Translations under genes and position numbers: made by a program
Shown here: in pieces, positions 29,682 to 51,917 of the stretch
How the letters are laid out: every line of letters starts with the position of its first letter
Numbering within the stretch: the stretch's first letter is position 1
Assembly: GCA_030426085.1 (NCBI GenBank)
Contig: JAUHYW010000022.1
Location: 1 to 64,000, forward strand
Length of the DNA stretch: 64,000 nt
Direction of reading: 5' to 3'
Origin: a bacterium
GTDB lineage: Bacteria > Myxococcota_A > Bradymonadia > UBA7976 > UBA1532
Notes under the pieces: model-generated
What the model saw: only the letters and a program-made list of their open reading frames with translations
The model's database searches: none
What the model was told of the DNA's origin: nothing

Positions 29682-30553
29682 AGGTGCTCTATTTCGGCGA
29701 CCCCCGGGGCGCGCTGGCCCTGATCGAGCGGGGCATCCCCCCGGCGGGCCTCGTGCACGGCCGCCGGGGCGGGCCGGGGCAGCGCGCGCTCGCCCGGCGG
29801 CTGAAGGCGCTCGACCCGCTGCCCCGCTGGACCCGACCCGACCTGGACGACCCCGCCGTGCTGGCCGCCCTGGCCGGGCTGGCGCCCGACCTGATCGTCG
29901 CCGCGTTCTACCCCCGGCGCATCCCGAAGCCGGTGCTCGACCTGGCCCCGGGCATCAACGTGCACCCCTCGGACCTGCCCCGCTGGCGGGGCCCCGACCC
30001 CTGCACCTGGGCCATCCGCAGCGGGGACGCGGCCACCGCGCTGTGCGTGCACCGGCTGACCGAGGGGCTCGACGAGGGCGACATCCTGGTGCGGGAGCCG
30101 ATCGCCATCGGCCCCCGGGCGACCTCCGGCAGCCTCGCCGAGCGCCTCGAAGCCCGGGGGGCGGCGCTCATCGCCGAGGTGGCCGCCCGGCTCGCGGCGG
30201 GCGAGGAGATCGAGGCCCGGCCCCAGATCGGCGCGCCCACCTGGGCCCCGCTGATCGACGATGACGACTGGGAGATCGACTGGACGGCGCCCGCCGCCGA
30301 GGTCGACCGCGAGGTGCGGGCCGCCGCGCCCGACCCGGGGGCCTTCACCGGGCTGGGGGACGAGCTGCTGGTGATCCTGCGGGGCGCGCCGGTCCCCGCC
30401 GGGCGCTTCGCGGCGCTGCCCCCGGGCAACCCGTTCGTGACCGGCGGCCGGTTCCACATCCGCTGCGGGGCCGGGGGGGCCTACCGCCTCGACCGGGTCC
30501 GCCTGGGCCGCCGGGCGCTGACCGGGCGGGCGCTGGCCGCGCTCTTCGTGTGA
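29678..30553 (+). CDS. Formyltransferase family protein (Fmt/sugar N-formyltransferase-like)
   Basis: This 291-aa protein has the N10-formyl-tetrahydrofolate-dependent formyltransferase fold. The conserved Asn-His-Asp set is visible: NVHPSDLPRWRGPDP (N and H, about residues 88-90) and GLDEGDILV (D, about 126). The C-terminal part is diverged from Fmt. Since it overlaps the glycosyltransferase gene by four bases, formylation of an amino-sugar is more likely than of Met-tRNA. The alternative is a second Fmt. The gap behind the stop is short and holds a TACACT -10-like element (30599-30604) for the next gene. Confidence 0.85.
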   Translation: MKVLYFGDPRGALALIERGIPPAGLVHGRRGGPGQRALARRLKALDPLPRWTRPDLDDPAVLAALAGLAPDLIVAAFYPRRIPKPVLDLAPGINVHPSDLPRWRGPDPCTWAIRSGDAATALCVHRLTEGLDEGDILVREPIAIGPRATSGSLAERLEARGAALIAEVAARLAAGEEIEARPQIGAPTWAPLIDDDDWEIDWTAPAAEVDREVRAAAPDPGAFTGLGDELLVILRGAPVPAGRFAALPPGNPFVTGGRFHIRCGAGGAYRLDRVRLGRRALTGRALAALFV

Positions 30554-30657
30554 GCCGGCCTCACTGCCGGCGATGGGGAGATCGCGGCCGGCCTGCGCTA
30601 CACTGCGCCCGGCCGGGCAGTCCGGCCCTGCGAATCCTCGAACCGAGGGGGGGTCCC

Positions 30658-31179
30658 ATGCGGGTTTCGATCATCCTGAGTGCGCTGCTGCTGTGTCTCG
30701 CCGGCCCGGCGGCGGCCGATCCGGCAGAGAAGGCGGGCAAGGCCGGCGACGCCGCCGAGAAGGCCGGCGACGACGCCATGAAGGCCGGGGCCAAGGCGCT
30801 CGAGGCGGGCGCCGAGGCCATGAAGGCCGGCGGTGAGGCGATGAAGAAGGCCGGGCTGGCGGGGGCGAAGACCGGCAAGGTGAAGGGCGCGGTGGCCTGC
30901 GCCGCCGGCGCCGCCTGCGCCCACCGGTGCCCCGACGGGGACTGCCAGTTCACCTGCCAGAAGGGGGCGAGCTGCAACTTCACCTGCTCCGGCGGGGACT
31001 GCCTCTCGCAGTGCGACGCCGGCTCGACGTGCAACGCGACCTGCTCCGGCGGCGACTGCAAGCAGACCTGCGCGGCGGGCGCGGTGTGCAACTTCTCGTG
31101 CTCCGGCGGGACCTGCGCCCGCCAGATCGCCGACGGCGCCACCGCCAAGCTGACCTGCACCGGGGACGGCTGCCGGTAG
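30658..31179 (+). CDS. Secreted cysteine-rich repeat protein
   Basis: This 173-aa protein starts with a signal peptide (ILSALLLCLAGPAAA). A Lys/Ala/Gly-rich helical segment (about 22-75, AEKAGKAGDAAEKAGDDAM-type) follows, then a Cys-rich domain of imperfect ~20-residue repeats. Each repeat has a G-x2-C-N-x2-C-SGG-x-C pattern (CNFTCSGGDC, CNATCSGGDC, CNFSCSGGTC). Sixteen or so cysteines suggest a disulfide-tight extracellular domain. GAGGGGGGG lies upstream of the ATG. The stop is only 8 bases before the decayed copy of the toxin-like cassette. Function unknown; similar proteins are common in predatory myxobacteria. Confidence 0.8.
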   Translation: MRVSIILSALLLCLAGPAAADPAEKAGKAGDAAEKAGDDAMKAGAKALEAGAEAMKAGGEAMKKAGLAGAKTGKVKGAVACAAGAACAHRCPDGDCQFTCQKGASCNFTCSGGDCLSQCDAGSTCNATCSGGDCKQTCAAGAVCNFSCSGGTCARQIADGATAKLTCTGDGCR

Positions 31180-31187
31180 CGCCCCCG

Positions 31188-31495
31188 CGGCAGCCCGCCC
31201 TCCCAGCACAGCGGATCCATGATGAACGGGCGCCCGCCGTTGTCGTTGAGCCGCAGCGTCAGCCCGTCGCCCCGCACCGTGCCCCGCCCGCCCGCTCGGT
31301 GCGGGTCGAGGCGCACGCGTCGTAGCGCCAGCACGCGGCCTCGCCGACGGAGCGGCCCTCGTCGTCGACGCCGGCCTCGACGGCCCCCATGAAGACGCCC
31401 CGGTGGTCGAGCCAGGACCACCTGGCGAGCAGGTCGCGCTCGGGCCGCGCCCGCCCGGCCTGGAGAACGCGACCCGCGGTGTCGGGCCGCGCCGG
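31188..31495 (-). pseudogene. Decayed, collinear second copy of the lipoprotein-toxin cassette
   Basis: Four short blocks match the intact cassette in the same order. They are 31188-31277 to 32308-32397 (nuclease gene, 3' part), 31283-31349 to 33679-33745 (nuclease gene, 5' part), 31345-31444 to 34042-34141 (SitB-like gene, 3' part) and 31441-31495 to 34792-34846 (tandem array). Within blocks few bases differ; between blocks 1.3 kb, 0.3 kb and 0.65 kb are deleted, and short shared ends (such as GACGG) mark two joints. No reading frame spans it. It is best explained as a tandem duplicate that collapsed by deletions. Confidence 0.85.
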
Positions 31496-31539: not shown

Positions 31540-32187
31540 TCAGGGGGCCCGAGGCGGATCGAAGGGCTGCCGGGCGCCGTGTCCGGCGGCCGCAGAGAGC
31601 GCCCGGGCCCGGACCTCACCCGGGTCGAGGCCCCAGCGGCGCAGGAGGTCGTGCACCATGTCCCGGTCGTAGCGCGAGCCCCGCACCTTCCAGTCGGCGA
31701 CGAGCGCAGGGAAGCCGGGCGGGGCGTCCGCCAGGCCTTCGAAGGCGTACGGCGGGTTCTGGATACCGAAGCTGGCCAGCGCGGCCAGGGCCCACTCCAG
31801 GGTGTTGCCGGAGTTGGGCAGGCCGCCTTGAAGCGCGAGCGGGTAGCCTTGCATCGCGCCATCATCGAGCCCAGGTGGATAGCTGCCCTCGGCCTCGAAG
31901 TGTCGGGCCGCCTCGATGAGCAGGAGATTGAACCGCGCGACGAAGATCTGGCCCTCATGGCCCCACAGCCCATAGCCCAGCTCGGGCGCGTCGGGGACGC
32001 GCACCGCGAGTGGCTGCCGCTCGAGCCGCGCGGACAGCCGCCGGATCTGCTCCCCTTCGGCGCCGACGGGGTCGATCGGGCAGATGATGCCGACGTAGCT
32101 CATGTCGGGCATGGGCATCTGTCGCTCGGCCAGCGGGCCGCGGTAGGGCATCGACAGGGCGATGAGCATCGCGACCCACTCCAGCAC
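31540..32187 (-). CDS. Candidate immunity protein (SitI-like position)
   Basis: This 215-aa protein begins at a GTG directly after the nuclease gene stop (TGA-GTG), with GGGAG 7 bases upstream; ATGs at codons 7 and 13 are alternatives. It lacks a signal peptide and looks soluble, with a mixed alpha/beta pattern (GEQIRRLSARLERQP; HEGQIFVARFNLLLIEAARHFE; GLPNSGNTLEWALAALASFG). No family recognised. Its place, last in a lipoprotein/lipoprotein-nuclease operon on the same strand, is what is expected for an immunity protein protecting sister cells. Function is inferred from position only. Confidence 0.55.
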   Translation of the reverse strand: MLEWVAMLIALSMPYRGPLAERQMPMPDMSYVGIICPIDPVGAEGEQIRRLSARLERQPLAVRVPDAPELGYGLWGHEGQIFVARFNLLLIEAARHFEAEGSYPPGLDDGAMQGYPLALQGGLPNSGNTLEWALAALASFGIQNPPYAFEGLADAPPGFPALVADWKVRGSRYDRDMVHDLLRRWGLDPGEVRARALSAAAGHGARQPFDPPRAP

Positions 32188-33966
32188 TCACTCGCTCCCG
32201 TTGCAATTGTCGTAGAAGGCGCCGACGCAGCTCCAGGTCGGGCTGACGCCCTCGGGCGCGATCTCGCCCGGCGCGAAGCAGGCGAACGCGGTCTGGGCGA
32301 CGGTCAGCGGCAGCCCGTCCTCCCAGCACAAGGGATCCATGATGAACGGGCGCCCGCCGTTGTCGTTGAGCCGCAGCGTCAGCCCGTCGCCCTGCACCTT
32401 GGCGAAGCCCTCGGCCAGCATCAGCGCCGTCCACCCGGGGGTGCCGGCGCAGAAGTTGTAGATCACCGAGTAGCGGGGCCCGGCGCCGGCCCGGCCGGCG
32501 ATCACCTTGTTGAGGTAGTCCTCGAGCTGGGTCCCGAAGGCCATCCCCCGGTACCAGTACCACGCCGACTGCCGCCTCCAGACCGTCTGGCTGTAGCACT
32601 TGACCTCGCCCAGCACGATGTGGTTCGAGCCGGTGAGGCGATAGTCGGGGTAGCGGATGCGCCCGGCGGGCTGCAGCATCACCCGGGCCCGCTCGTGGTC
32701 GAGGCCCGGCGGCAGGGCCCACTGCAAAGCCTCGGTGCGAAAGAACGGCCGGCGCATGAGCAGGTTGGGGTGTTTCTTGCACTGGACGTCGCCCCCATGC
32801 TTCAGCAGCAGCCGGCGACAGACGTGGTCCTCGTACTGGTGCCCCCGCTTCGCGGCGCGCGCCGCCTGCGCCTGACAGATCTCGCCCGGCGGGCACAGCG
32901 GCTCGGCGCCCTGCAGCTCGGCCAGCGAGTCCACGTGCACGTACTCGATCTCCGACTCTTCGTACAGCGCCTGCCCGTCGGGCAGATCGCCGAGCACCGC
33001 CTCCTCGAGCCAGGCGTTGATCGAGGGGAAGGGCTCGCACGACCGCGCCTCGTCGCCCGGGGCGCAGACCCACCGCCCGGGGCGGCCGCCCATCTCGGGG
33101 GCGGTCTCCGGATCGTGACAGTACCGCTCGGCCAGCGGCGCGTCGTCATCGGGCAGCGGGTCGACCTGCTCGCAGTCGCACAGGTCGTCGAGCCCGTCCT
33201 CGTCTTCGTCGGGGCAGCTCCAGGTGTTGGCCCGGGCGAAGATCTCCGCGTGGCAGGTGATGAGGTCGTACGCCCAGCCCCCGGTGTCGAAGCGCCAGTC
33301 CATGTCGGGGCGGACCTCCAGCTCGATGGTCGGGTTGGGGCCGGCGCCGACCCGCTCGATCCGGAAGCCGGCCCATCGAAAGCAGCTCAGCCACTGCTCG
33401 ACGAGGCCGGGGCCGACGAGGTCGAGGTGCGGGGCGCCAGCGTGGGGCAGCAGGCGCATGGGCAGGGCGAAGCCGGGATCGCCGCCGGGCATGAACGGGA
33501 TCACCTCGGCGGTGGACAAGCTGCCGTCGCAGACGCGGCAGGGCGTCGCGTCGGTGGTCTCGACGCGCAGGTCCCAGGCCGCGTAGGGCGGAAACGCCAG
33601 GCCGGTGTCGTCGCGGGCGACCGGCGCGGCGTAGCGCTCCATCAGCCCGTCGCCGTCCATGTCGAGGTTCGGCTGTGGCCCGCCCGCCAGCTCGGTGCGG
33701 GTCGAGGCGCACTCGTCGTAGCGCCAGCACGCGGCCTCGCCGACGTAGCGCAGCCCGATCTCGCCCGCCTCCTGAAGGTCGATCGACCACTCGCCGATGT
33801 ATCCGTTGAGGTCGGCGCCGCTCAGCGGGCCGACGGGGGTCGGGCCGGCGTCGGCGAGGGCGGGCAGCCCGTCGAGCGGGGGCGCCGGACAGCCGGCGAG
33901 CGCTAAGACGAGCGGCGCCAGGAGCAGCGCGCGAGGCAGCCCCGCCGGATCACCCGCCGCAGACAT
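32188..33966 (-). CDS. Lipoprotein with C-terminal PD-(D/E)XK nuclease domain (SitA-like toxin candidate)
   Basis: This 592-aa protein starts with a lipoprotein signal (LLLAPLVLALAGC, Cys26). The middle (about 60-370) is Cys-rich with acidic loops (MDGDGLME, DEDEDGLDDLC) of the calcium-binding kind. From residue 376 a restriction-endonuclease-like fold is readable: helix YEDHVCRRLLL, Asp441 in RYPDYRL, Glu454 and Lys456 in LGEVKCYSQ, and Gln480 in GTQLEDYLNKV. This is the pattern of Tox-REase toxin domains. Gene order lipoprotein, toxin lipoprotein, small soluble protein matches Myxococcus SitB-SitA-SitI. It overlaps the upstream gene by 17 bases. Nuclease activity and outer-membrane-exchange delivery are inferred. 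Confidence 0.75.
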   Translation of the reverse strand: MSAAGDPAGLPRALLLAPLVLALAGCPAPPLDGLPALADAGPTPVGPLSGADLNGYIGEWSIDLQEAGEIGLRYVGEAACWRYDECASTRTELAGGPQPNLDMDGDGLMERYAAPVARDDTGLAFPPYAAWDLRVETTDATPCRVCDGSLSTAEVIPFMPGGDPGFALPMRLLPHAGAPHLDLVGPGLVEQWLSCFRWAGFRIERVGAGPNPTIELEVRPDMDWRFDTGGWAYDLITCHAEIFARANTWSCPDEDEDGLDDLCDCEQVDPLPDDDAPLAERYCHDPETAPEMGGRPGRWVCAPGDEARSCEPFPSINAWLEEAVLGDLPDGQALYEESEIEYVHVDSLAELQGAEPLCPPGEICQAQAARAAKRGHQYEDHVCRRLLLKHGGDVQCKKHPNLLMRRPFFRTEALQWALPPGLDHERARVMLQPAGRIRYPDYRLTGSNHIVLGEVKCYSQTVWRRQSAWYWYRGMAFGTQLEDYLNKVIAGRAGAGPRYSVIYNFCAGTPGWTALMLAEGFAKVQGDGLTLRLNDNGGRPFIMDPLCWEDGLPLTVAQTAFACFAPGEIAPEGVSPTWSCVGAFYDNCNGSE

Positions 33967-34576
33967 CGACCGCGACCAGATCGTGGACCATGGCCTCGGC
34001 CTCGGACGGCGAGAGGGCGGACCCTGCGCCGGGCAGCGACCAGACGGAGCGGCCCTCGGCGTCGACGCCGGCCTCGATGGCCCCCAGGAATACGACCCGG
34101 TGGTCCAGCCAGGACCACTTGGCGAGCAGGTCGCGCTCGGGCGCGTAGAATCGGATCTGCCAGTCCTCGGGCGGCTCGGCGCGGTGGAAGACCCGGTTGC
34201 GGCAGCGGAACCAGGCGTCGACGAGGGACGCATAGAGCGCGTCGGTCGGGACCGCGCGGATCTGGATTCGCGCGACGGGCGCCGTTCGACTCTGCTCTCC
34301 GGTCGTCAGCTCGGCCCGGTAGGCCGAGGGGTCCTCGTCGACGCCGAGGCCACGCCACGCGACGGCGCCGCTCGCGCTCCCGCCCGGCGCGCATCCGGCG
34401 CGGATGCAGTCGAGGTCGCCGGGCGTCGGACCGGACGCTCCACCGCAGTGGGTGGCGCACGCCGGTGCCGTCGCCGGCAGGGGCTCGGGGATGGTCGACT
34501 CGGCGTCACACCCGAGCGCGCCGAGCGCGATGGCCGCGCACGCTACGAATGGAAGGCTGGGCGCCATGTCTGTCAT
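33950..34576 (-). CDS. Small lipoprotein, first gene of the cassette (SitB-like position)
   Basis: This 208-aa lipoprotein has a signal (PFVACAAIALGALGC, Cys23) and several cysteines early in the mature part. The C-terminal half (YASLVDAWFRCRNRVFHRAEPPEDW..., then DLLAKWSWLDHRVVFLGAIEAG) matches no family I know. Its position ahead of a lipoprotein toxin, with a 17-base overlap, is that of sitB, whose product aids SitA function in Myxococcus xanthus. Start ATG 34576 has GGGAG 8 bases upstream; ATG 34567 is the alternative. A promoter lies at 34606-34634. Part of this gene is duplicated in the decayed copy at 31345-31444. Confidence 0.65.
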   Translation of the reverse strand: MTDMAPSLPFVACAAIALGALGCDAESTIPEPLPATAPACATHCGGASGPTPGDLDCIRAGCAPGGSASGAVAWRGLGVDEDPSAYRAELTTGEQSRTAPVARIQIRAVPTDALYASLVDAWFRCRNRVFHRAEPPEDWQIRFYAPERDLLAKWSWLDHRVVFLGAIEAGVDAEGRSVWSLPGAGSALSPSEAEAMVHDLVAVDVCGG

Positions 34577-34744: not shown

Positions 34745-35766
34745 CCCCGAGTCCGACCCCCGCCCGGCCTGGAGAACGCGACCCGCGGTGTCGGGCCGCG
34801 CCCGCCCGGCCTGGAGAACGCGACCCGCGGCGTCGGGCCGCGCCCGCCCGGCCTGGAGAACGCGGCCCGCGGTGTCGGGCGACACCGCCCTGGTCCGGAG
34901 AGCGCGGGGCAGGGGTGTCCGGCGACACCTCACTGGCCGGAAAATCCAGCGCAGAGGTGTCCGGCCACACCTCACCGGCCCGGAGAACGCGGGGTCGGGG
35001 TGTCCGGCGACACCTCACCGGCCTGGAGAACGCGGGGTCGGGGTGTCCGGCGACACCTCACCCCCTCGATGGATCGGAGGCGGGGGTGTCCGGCCACACC
35101 CCACCGGCCTGGAGAACGCGGCCCGCGGTGTCGGGCGAGACCGCCCTGGCCCGGAGAGCGCGGGGCAGGGGTCTCCGGCGACACCTCACCGGCCCGGAGA
35201 ACCCGGGGCGGGGGTGTCCGGCCACACCCCACCGGCCCGGAGAATCCGGCGTCGCGGTGTCCGGCGACCCCTCACCGGCCCGGAGAATACGGGGCAGGGG
35301 TGTCCGGCGACACCTCACCGGTCCGGAGAATACGGGGCAGGGGTGTCCGGCGACACCTCACCGGCCCGAAGGACCCGGCGTCGCGGTATCCGGCCGCGCC
35401 TCGGGCGGCGTCCTCACCGGTCGGGGGGGTCTCCGAGCGGGCCTCCCGGGTCGGAGAGTCCGGGGCGGGGGTGTCCGGCGGCCCCTCACCGGCCCGAAGA
35501 GTCCGGCGTCGCGGTATCCGGCCGCGCCCCGGGCGGCGCCCTCATCGGTCGGGGGGTCTCCGAGCGGGCCTCCCGGGCTGGAGAGTCCAGGGCGGGGGTG
35601 TCCGGCGGCCCCTCACCGGCCCGAAGAGTCCGGCGTCGCGGTGTCCGGCCGCGCCCCGGGCGGCGCCCTCACCGGTCGGGGGGTCTCCGAGCGGGCCTCC
35701 CGGGCTGGAGAGTCCGGGGCGGGGGTGTCCCGCCTGGCCCCGGGCGGCGTCCGCCCGGCCGTCACC
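34745..35766. repeat. Non-coding tandem array of 42-43-bp hairpin units
   Basis: About 24 contiguous units start at 34787, 34829, 34871, 34914, 34956, 34999, 35042, 35085, 35127, 35170, 35213, 35256, 35299, 35342, 35385, 35428, 35470, 35513, 35555, 35597, 35640, 35682 and 35724, with a partial unit before. The anchor is GGTGTCCGGCGACACC, a perfect hairpin (GGTGTC-CGGC-GACACC) in units 34914, 34999, 35042, 35299 and 35342, with variants elsewhere. Unit length is not a multiple of three, so long frames through it are not coding. From 35342 on, three-unit blocks of 127-128 bases repeat. Confidence 0.9.
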
Positions 35767-51398: not shown

Positions 51399-51917
51399 AT
51401 GAAGCCCGGCATCAAGACCCTCTCCGCCCTCCTGCTCACCTTCGGCCTGACCCTGCCCGGCCTCGCCTTCGCCTGTGGCGGCGGGGGTGGCGGGCCCGGG
51501 TTCAAGAAGGGGCCCGCCCCCCACAAGATGGTCCGCATGATCGAGAAGAACGCCGAGCAGCTCGGCATCGAGCAGGCCACCCTCGATCAGATCCAGCAGG
51601 TGCTCGAGGCCAACAAGCCCGAGGCCGAGTCGCTGCGGGCCGACGCCAAGGCGGCCGGCAAGGCGCTGCGCGAGGCCATGAAGAGCGAGAACCCGAGCAA
51701 GGACCAGGTGCTCGCCCTCTCGGCCGAGGCCGGCGCCGCCCGGCAGGCGCTGAAGCAGTTCAACCTCTCGGTCATGCTCGACATCAAGGCGCTGCTCACC
51801 CCCGAGCAGCAGGCGGCGATGCGCGAGCTGCGGGCCGAGCGCCGGGGCAAGTGGAAGGGCAAGCGCGGCAAGCGCGGCAAGCGCGGCGGCTGGGGCGGGC
51901 CCGAGGCCGAGCTGTGA
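51399..51917 (+). CDS. Spy/CpxP-like periplasmic protein
   Basis: This 172-aa protein has a signal peptide (LSALLLTFGLTLPGLAFA) followed by a Cys-Gly-rich stretch, then a helical domain with the pattern of Spy/CpxP/heavy-metal-resistor proteins: LDQIQQVLEANKPEAESLRA, then LSVMLDIKALLTPEQQAAM (the LTPEQ motif). The C-terminus is Lys/Arg/Gly-rich. Spy-like proteins are periplasmic chaperones or stress sensors. ATG 51399 follows GAGGAG. A TAAACT -10-like element at 51321-51326 suggests its own promoter. A terminator follows. Confidence 0.82.
   Translation: MKPGIKTLSALLLTFGLTLPGLAFACGGGGGGPGFKKGPAPHKMVRMIEKNAEQLGIEQATLDQIQQVLEANKPEAESLRADAKAAGKALREAMKSENPSKDQVLALSAEAGAARQALKQFNLSVMLDIKALLTPEQQAAMRELRAERRGKWKGKRGKRGKRGGWGGPEAEL

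Follow-up and report, generated by a model that had tools for sequence, protein, structure and literature searches.

A three-gene cassette encoding a predicted lipoprotein with a nuclease-like end and a putative immunity partner in a Myxococcota genome

The 64,000-nucleotide (nt) window analysed here (bases 1-64000 of contig C67; GenBank JAUHYW010000022.1, assembly GCA_030426085.1) contains three tightly coupled genes on the minus strand, designated B, A, and I. Gene B (33950-34576) encodes a 208-amino-acid (aa) predicted lipoprotein with the lipobox motif ALGC (Cys23), in a position like that of sitB in the sitBAI cassettes of Myxococcus. Gene A (32188-33966) encodes a 592-aa predicted lipoprotein with the motif LAGC (Cys26) and a nuclease-like C-terminal end, and gene I (31540-32187), which starts with GTG, encodes a 215-aa putative immunity protein. 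Both lipobox-like motifs were called by eye, without a signal predictor. B shares its last 17 nt with the start of A, and the TGA of A abuts the GTG of I; coordinates and lengths agreed with the original prediction, which had been made from the sequence and had described a sitBAI-like lipoprotein toxin/immunity cassette. The genome comprises 10.1 Mb in 178 contigs and is 95% complete. In it, 81 of 116 listed MYXO-CTERM matches exceeded the cut-off (3 of them only with their neighbours), which fits a bacterium of the Myxococcota.

The G+C content of the window is 69-78% (in 2-kb steps), so that chance open frames were conceivable. Between the window and the copy in a genus-mate (G207), the ratio of nonsynonymous to synonymous substitution rates (dN/dS) was 0.46 for B, 0.32 for A, and 0.36 for I, and third codon positions changed most often in all three. 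On the strength of these substitution patterns, we regard B, A, and I as coding genes and not chance frames.

When A was searched against a 377-genome sample of the phylum, long matches were found only in the window genome, in G207, and in G103, which belongs to another genus of the same family. In G207 (locus L013) the order B-A-I recurs, with identities of 63%, 80%, and 71%, respectively. In G103, A is split by contig ends: one contig (L014) has B followed by residues 1-420 of A, and another has the final 199 residues of A followed by I. The two ends, which have 47 residues in common at the cut and were left unjoined, likely represent one locus. The B protein of G103 is 23% identical to that of the window. 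B and A overlap by 11 nt in G207 and by 14 nt in G103, and the A copies of both genomes also bear a lipobox-like motif (judged on the motif only).

A profile of the C-terminal domain of A (residues 376-592; 32191-32841, minus strand) found a second open copy in the window genome, on contig C107. There, an A-like protein, cut by the contig end so that its N-terminus lies off the contig, consists of thrombospondin type 3 (TSP3) repeats (Pfam TSP_3, E 9.6e-19), a similar linker, and the domain. The stop of this A-like gene is overlapped by an I-like gene of 186 aa. When 57 genomes (the window genome and relatives) were searched with profiles of the domain and of I, both profiles matched the same three genomes at the same four places (window, G207, G103, and C107), and no I protein was found elsewhere among the 57 at significant scores. 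In all four places the open domain adjoins I and the frames are coupled, I abutting A or overlapping it by up to 4 nt (0-4 nt) for the chosen start codons; B lies upstream of A in the three places that have upstream sequence. The domain profile also matched the other G103 piece and a decayed copy beside the cassette, the latter without I. Homologues of the three genes occur together, with their order kept in the relatives; the original prediction had named homologues lying apart from each other as damaging to it, and this is contradicted.

Only the cassette and its remnant matched between the window and 19 kb around the G207 copy at E 1e-8. Because no sequence around the cassette is common to the two genus-mates, the two cassettes apparently occupy different sites. 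Searches of plasmids and phages with A, of plasmids with I, and of viral contigs with the domain and I alignments gave no matches; among genome-contig records, A gave none and the domain alignment gave only those of G207 and G103. Several weak candidates were discarded. Matches confined to the first 145 residues of A in G044, G223, and G295 (E 0.001-0.006) led to unrelated-looking proteins and were judged to be chance, as was a domain-profile match on contig C103 of the window genome (E 0.019, 11.8 bits, two stops). Domain-profile matches in G081 and G018 (E about 0.09), an I-profile match in G197 (E 0.02), and a weak match at position 51911 of the window contig (E 0.28) were dropped.

In all four A proteins, an Asp-rich, TSP3-like stretch precedes a Cys pattern and the motif GxPGxxxC. 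In the window protein this stretch and the Cys-rich linker, which are common to the three relatives, occupy residues 251-310 approximately (33037-33216, minus strand); unlike the C107 paralog, A itself has no Pfam TSP_3 match. Relative to the G207 copy, residues 1-260 are the least conserved part of A (dN/dS 0.45), followed by the linker (0.24) and the C-terminal domain (0.22). Between the window and G103, the C-terminal domain is 43% identical and the N-terminal part aligns poorly. The carrier part varies between members and the C-terminal domain and I stay, as in modular toxins. The domain is conserved to its last residues, and all four copies end alike (G-A-x-Y-D-...-G-S). Asp441, Glu454, and Lys456 mark the predicted active-site region (32599-32646, minus strand); together with Gln480 they were found at the positions originally assigned to them and are invariant in the four domains at identities down to 29%, which is not true of the Pro before the Asp. 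Seven Cys residues of the domain are kept in the window, G207, and G103, and five of them are absent from the C107 paralog.

Neither A, B, nor I matched Pfam, PHROGs, or PADLOC, and nothing exceeded the NCBIfam cut-offs (a match of I to arcadin-3 at E 0.065 was taken as chance); the Pfam and NCBIfam searches that gave no match for A used the sequence without its first Met. Against the PDB, no sequence match was found for A, the domain profile, or the B profile. At a Pfam threshold of E 10, the domain members gave only stray matches to Ank (0.065) and DUF881 (0.37), which were rejected. Among the titles of the literature retrieved, none about this A/I family was found.

Structures of the domain and of I were modelled with AlphaFold2 from four-sequence alignments. 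The domain model was of low confidence, with a mean predicted local distance difference test score (pLDDT) of 40. With this model, the top Foldseek match was 4zqu, a CdiA-CT toxin (E 0.023, probability 0.82), and VIA-align ranked 4zqu first (Z 8.6, 103 residues, 3.1 A) and the CdiA-CT toxin 4g6u second (Z 7.6, 93 residues, 2.8 A). The next rows were Avs4 (Z 7.2), the N-terminal part of which we take to be likewise a PD-(D/E)XK nuclease, and unrelated STAS-domain proteins (Z 7.0). Both 4zqu and 4g6u have been described as PD-(D/E)XK DNase toxins (PMC9086364). The fold ranking supports, and does not prove, a PD-(D/E)XK-type domain in A. Of the nuclease end proposed originally, the residue pattern D...ExK...Q stands and the fold is backed weakly; structure prediction did bring nuclease toxins of the CdiA-CT type to the top, with a poor model and unrelated proteins close behind.

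The 215-aa protein had been called soluble, which is doubtful because in each of the four I proteins no other stretch, or hardly any, exceeds the N-terminus (32149-32187, minus strand; a possible signal or anchor) in hydrophobicity. The feature is clear for G103 and C107; for the window and G207 proteins the N-terminus is only about as hydrophobic as the next best stretch. I may therefore be exported, judging from its sequence. The I model had a mean pLDDT of 69 and no fold relative was found for it; no CdiI structure appeared among the rows displayed, which excludes nothing. No Pfam family was found for the four I proteins at E 10, and six weak matches of the I profile to the PDB (E 0.4-1.8) were taken as chance. 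Outside the signal stretch, B resembled neither A nor I.

Downstream of I lies what appears to be a second, decayed unit. Three pieces at 31187-31281, 31279-31354, and 31346-31445 abut each other (31187-31445 overall, minus strand) and match one part of B and two parts of A in cassette order at 93-95% identity; they seem to be what is left of a tandem copy after large internal deletions. Directly upstream of B is a minisatellite array (34759-35730) with periods of 42, 43, and 127 bp, and a single 17-bp stretch identical to part of the 42-bp repeat (31455-31471, minus strand) lies between I and the remnant. A core copy of the upstream array in this position is what would be expected had a unit consisting of repeat plus cassette been duplicated, as may have happened. 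The C107 paralog pair also has 42-bp-period repeat arrays alongside (L023:5095-6018). Minisatellite units of the window and L023 showed no likeness to each other beyond shuffled controls; two units within L023 resemble each other in reverse complement. Beside the decayed copy, a plus-strand frame (30550-31179) encodes a protein that looks exported, carries Lys/Ala-rich and Cys-rich repeats, and has no Pfam match.

Since the open domain is paired with I in all four places, B precedes A in three of three, the catalytic-type residues are invariant, CdiA-CT toxins head the fold ranking, the carriers vary, the surroundings differ between the genus-mates, and a decayed tandem copy lies alongside, we consider it probable that A is a membrane-anchored nuclease toxin and I its cognate protector. 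A would be exported, lipidated at Cys26, and kept in the cell envelope, with the N-terminal region and the TSP3-like, Cys-rich linker serving as carrier and stalk. The PD-(D/E)XK domain would be passed to a contacting cell, where it would cut nucleic acid; I would bind the C-terminal domain and shield the producer and its kin. B, encoded in the overlapping frame, would be an envelope partner that aids the display or handover of A. Toxicity, immunity, lipidation, delivery to neighbours, and the role of B are what we infer here, and exchange of the TraA/TraB type is a possible delivery route.

Several observations weigh against this interpretation. No profile of any toxin or immunity family matched A, B, or I; the domain model is poor, its top Z of 8.6 is little above the unrelated rows at 7.0, and best VIA-align Z values of 7-8 are typical of models with no clear match. 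The C-terminal domain evolves slowly, unlike the expectation for an arms race, and I, which may be exported, would be an odd immunity protein if the nuclease works in the cytoplasm. The four copies, two of which come from one genome, were found with C-terminal-domain and whole-A queries, which could have missed the same carrier joined to a different toxin end.

The main rival is that A is a surface-anchored nuclease that serves feeding or predation or acts on extracellular DNA, and that I is a self-protection inhibitor or an export chaperone with no part in kin discrimination. Strong purifying selection on the domain and the presence of a single family in all four copies would suit such an enzyme, as would the hydrophobic N-terminus of every I protein, and the seven domain Cys residues kept in the window, G207, and G103 suit an oxidising envelope or the outside of the cell, but their partial loss in the C107 paralog does not fit this explanation. 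The invariable company of I and the duplication of the cassette at different sites are more usual for toxin/immunity genes, and we judge a surface nuclease of this kind to be unlikely. The lack of a nuclease profile match and the poor domain model could also mean that A is inactive as a nuclease, the Asp/Glu/Lys pattern being structural and the three proteins forming an envelope or adhesion complex; TSP3 repeats and a sub-threshold likeness to the cohesion protein MtsC (114.6 bits, cut-off 350) in the C107 paralog are typical of surface structures. However, it would be hard to reconcile such a complex with four catalytic-type residues that stay invariant at 29% identity and with structure lists headed by nuclease toxins of contact-dependent inhibition, and we hold it to be very improbable.

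A third alternative is that the genes are a true sitBAI locus, in which A represents a further SitA family delivered through outer-membrane exchange by TraA/TraB, with B as SitB and I as SitI. The cassette does have the Sit layout: the gene order, the B/A overlaps of 17, 11, and 14 nt (compared with 11 nt in M. xanthus, PMC5562445), the lipobox motif on A, its nuclease-like end, and the adjacent I all correspond, and the genome has abundant MYXO-CTERM proteins together with the TraB-like and TraA-like matches described below. On the other side are the lack of TraA and TraB matches over the curated cut-offs in 57 genomes, the weak conservation of the N-terminal region, and the lipobox motif of B. 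Moreover, the window genome has two open copies of this toxin domain and one remnant, a count that covers this family of toxins only, compared with 25-80 sitAI loci per genome in PMC8546572 (15 to over 80 in PMC10433427). Membership of the sitBAI family is not established and seems quite unlikely; what the analysis supports of the original prediction is a cassette of lipoprotein toxin and immunity protein, with a PD-(D/E)XK-type end and in the Sit gene order. Its suggestion of a new SitA family agrees with the layout and is weakened by the conservation of the toxin end and not of the N-terminal part.

The question of traA and traB in the genome, which had been raised with the Sit proposal, was approached with the TraB model NF033763 (cut-off 700 bits) and the TraA model NF033759 (cut-off 750). 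Neither found a match over cut-off in any of the 57 genomes; the TraA search had no positive control, so that absence is not demonstrated, and TraB-like proteins exist below the cut-off. The outcome leans towards the lack of traAB that the original prediction had named as counting against it. When six frames of the window genome were scanned, five matched the TraB model at 135-237 bits. The best was a 623-aa frame on contig C116 (L099:5045-6913; 237 bits), which directly follows a long frame ending in a MYXO-CTERM (L099:2-6913 for the two frames together). A 2037-aa frame on contig C70 (L102:1192-7302) begins with many MopE-type metal-binding repeats; a MYXO-CTERM-like segment comes next, then another signal-like segment, and finally a TraB-like part that covers nearly the whole model (172 bits). 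The frame L101:1227-4832 is built likewise (135 bits, again over nearly the whole TraB model), and in both frames the TraB-like part is fused behind a Cys-rich part with a MYXO-CTERM-like segment. A Cys-repeat protein (L077) reached 151.5 bits with the TraA model, far below 750 and mainly through its Cys-rich repeats. Nothing links the TraB-like and Cys-repeat proteins to the cassette. A survey of OmpA-domain and MYXO-CTERM neighbours yielded sub-threshold TraB-like proteins and no curated TraA-TraB pair. Because TraAB has been reported from all three suborders (PMC6372800) and TraA/TraB homologues from uncultured Myxococcota (PMC11821767), a divergent pair may have been missed.

TIGR04201 was useless as a TraA marker, matching 57 of 57 genomes at E 0.01 and 55 of 57 over its cut-off; one of its matches falls within an open frame given as 26,329 residues long (C162, near 198505). 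TIGR02269, which we take to be the SitA6 model, gave no match over cut-off in the 377 genomes; it had no positive control, and nothing was concluded from it. Elsewhere in the genome, an 1870-aa frame on contig C173 (L103:2552-8161) combines 28 TSP3 stretches, an MtsC match over cut-off, and a C-terminal OmpA domain. At 1731-2813 of the window, a Roadblock/LC7 gene is followed by a gene for an Arf-like small GTPase, a pair that presumably resembles MglB and MglA, the motility polarity pair.

If A and I are indeed a membrane-anchored nuclease toxin and its protector, lipoprotein-tethered nuclease toxins with protectors reach beyond the genomes with known TraA-based outer-membrane exchange, and this would be the first description of a toxin domain and a partner protein that both lack Pfam and NCBIfam matches. 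Whether contact transfer of outer-membrane toxins predates TraA or arose apart from it would then become testable. Should the kin-discrimination part be wrong, A would still be an exported nuclease-like protein with a dedicated partner. A bolder idea, which we regard as quite unlikely, is that lipoprotein toxins outside the classical outer-membrane-exchange myxobacteria, nucleases on thrombospondin-repeat carriers, are handed from cell to cell by non-TraA surface receptors, for which the MYXO-CTERM/TraB-like proteins found here may be candidates, and that the immunity protein is located in the envelope; this would amount to an independent or ancestral kind of Sit-type kin discrimination.

Among known systems, the sitBAI cassettes of Myxococcus (SitA1/2, SitA3-SitA7) are similar in having a lipobox toxin with a nuclease-like C-terminal end; the exported gene overlapping upstream (in three of three places) and the small partner gene directly downstream (in four of four) are further likenesses. 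According to two reports, SitA proteins have a conserved N-terminal escort domain and variable nuclease ends and occur only in species with traAB (PMC5562445, PMC8546572), the escort domains defining six families (PMC8546572). In our cassette, by contrast, the toxin end is conserved and the N-terminal part less so, as judged by dN/dS over few copies, and A had no NCBIfam, Pfam, or PHROGs match to escort-domain families, models for all six of which may not exist. B bears the motif ALGC (called by eye), whereas SitB has a type I signal, and sitB is described as not obligatory in the sit family (PMC5562445). The hydrophobic N-terminus of I and the lack of TraA and TraB over curated cut-offs (with the TraA search uncontrolled) are further differences. 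The CdiA-CT toxins of Yersinia pseudotuberculosis YPIII and Escherichia coli TA271 (4zqu and 4g6u), the best matches to the low-confidence domain model, also have an immunity partner, a role that is putative for I; they differ in sequence (5% and 4% identity over aligned residues) and in being carried by CdiA of two-partner secretion and not by a lipoprotein. Unlike Tox-REase-5/Imm52, the four domains and four I proteins had no Pfam Tox-REase or Imm match at E 10, the presence of these models in the Pfam copy being unchecked. The motif order of Tox-REase-5 is FDG, EAK, Q, and W in Zhang et al. 2012 (PMC3482391), and the C107 paralog resembles it with SDG, EAK, and Q in the same order.

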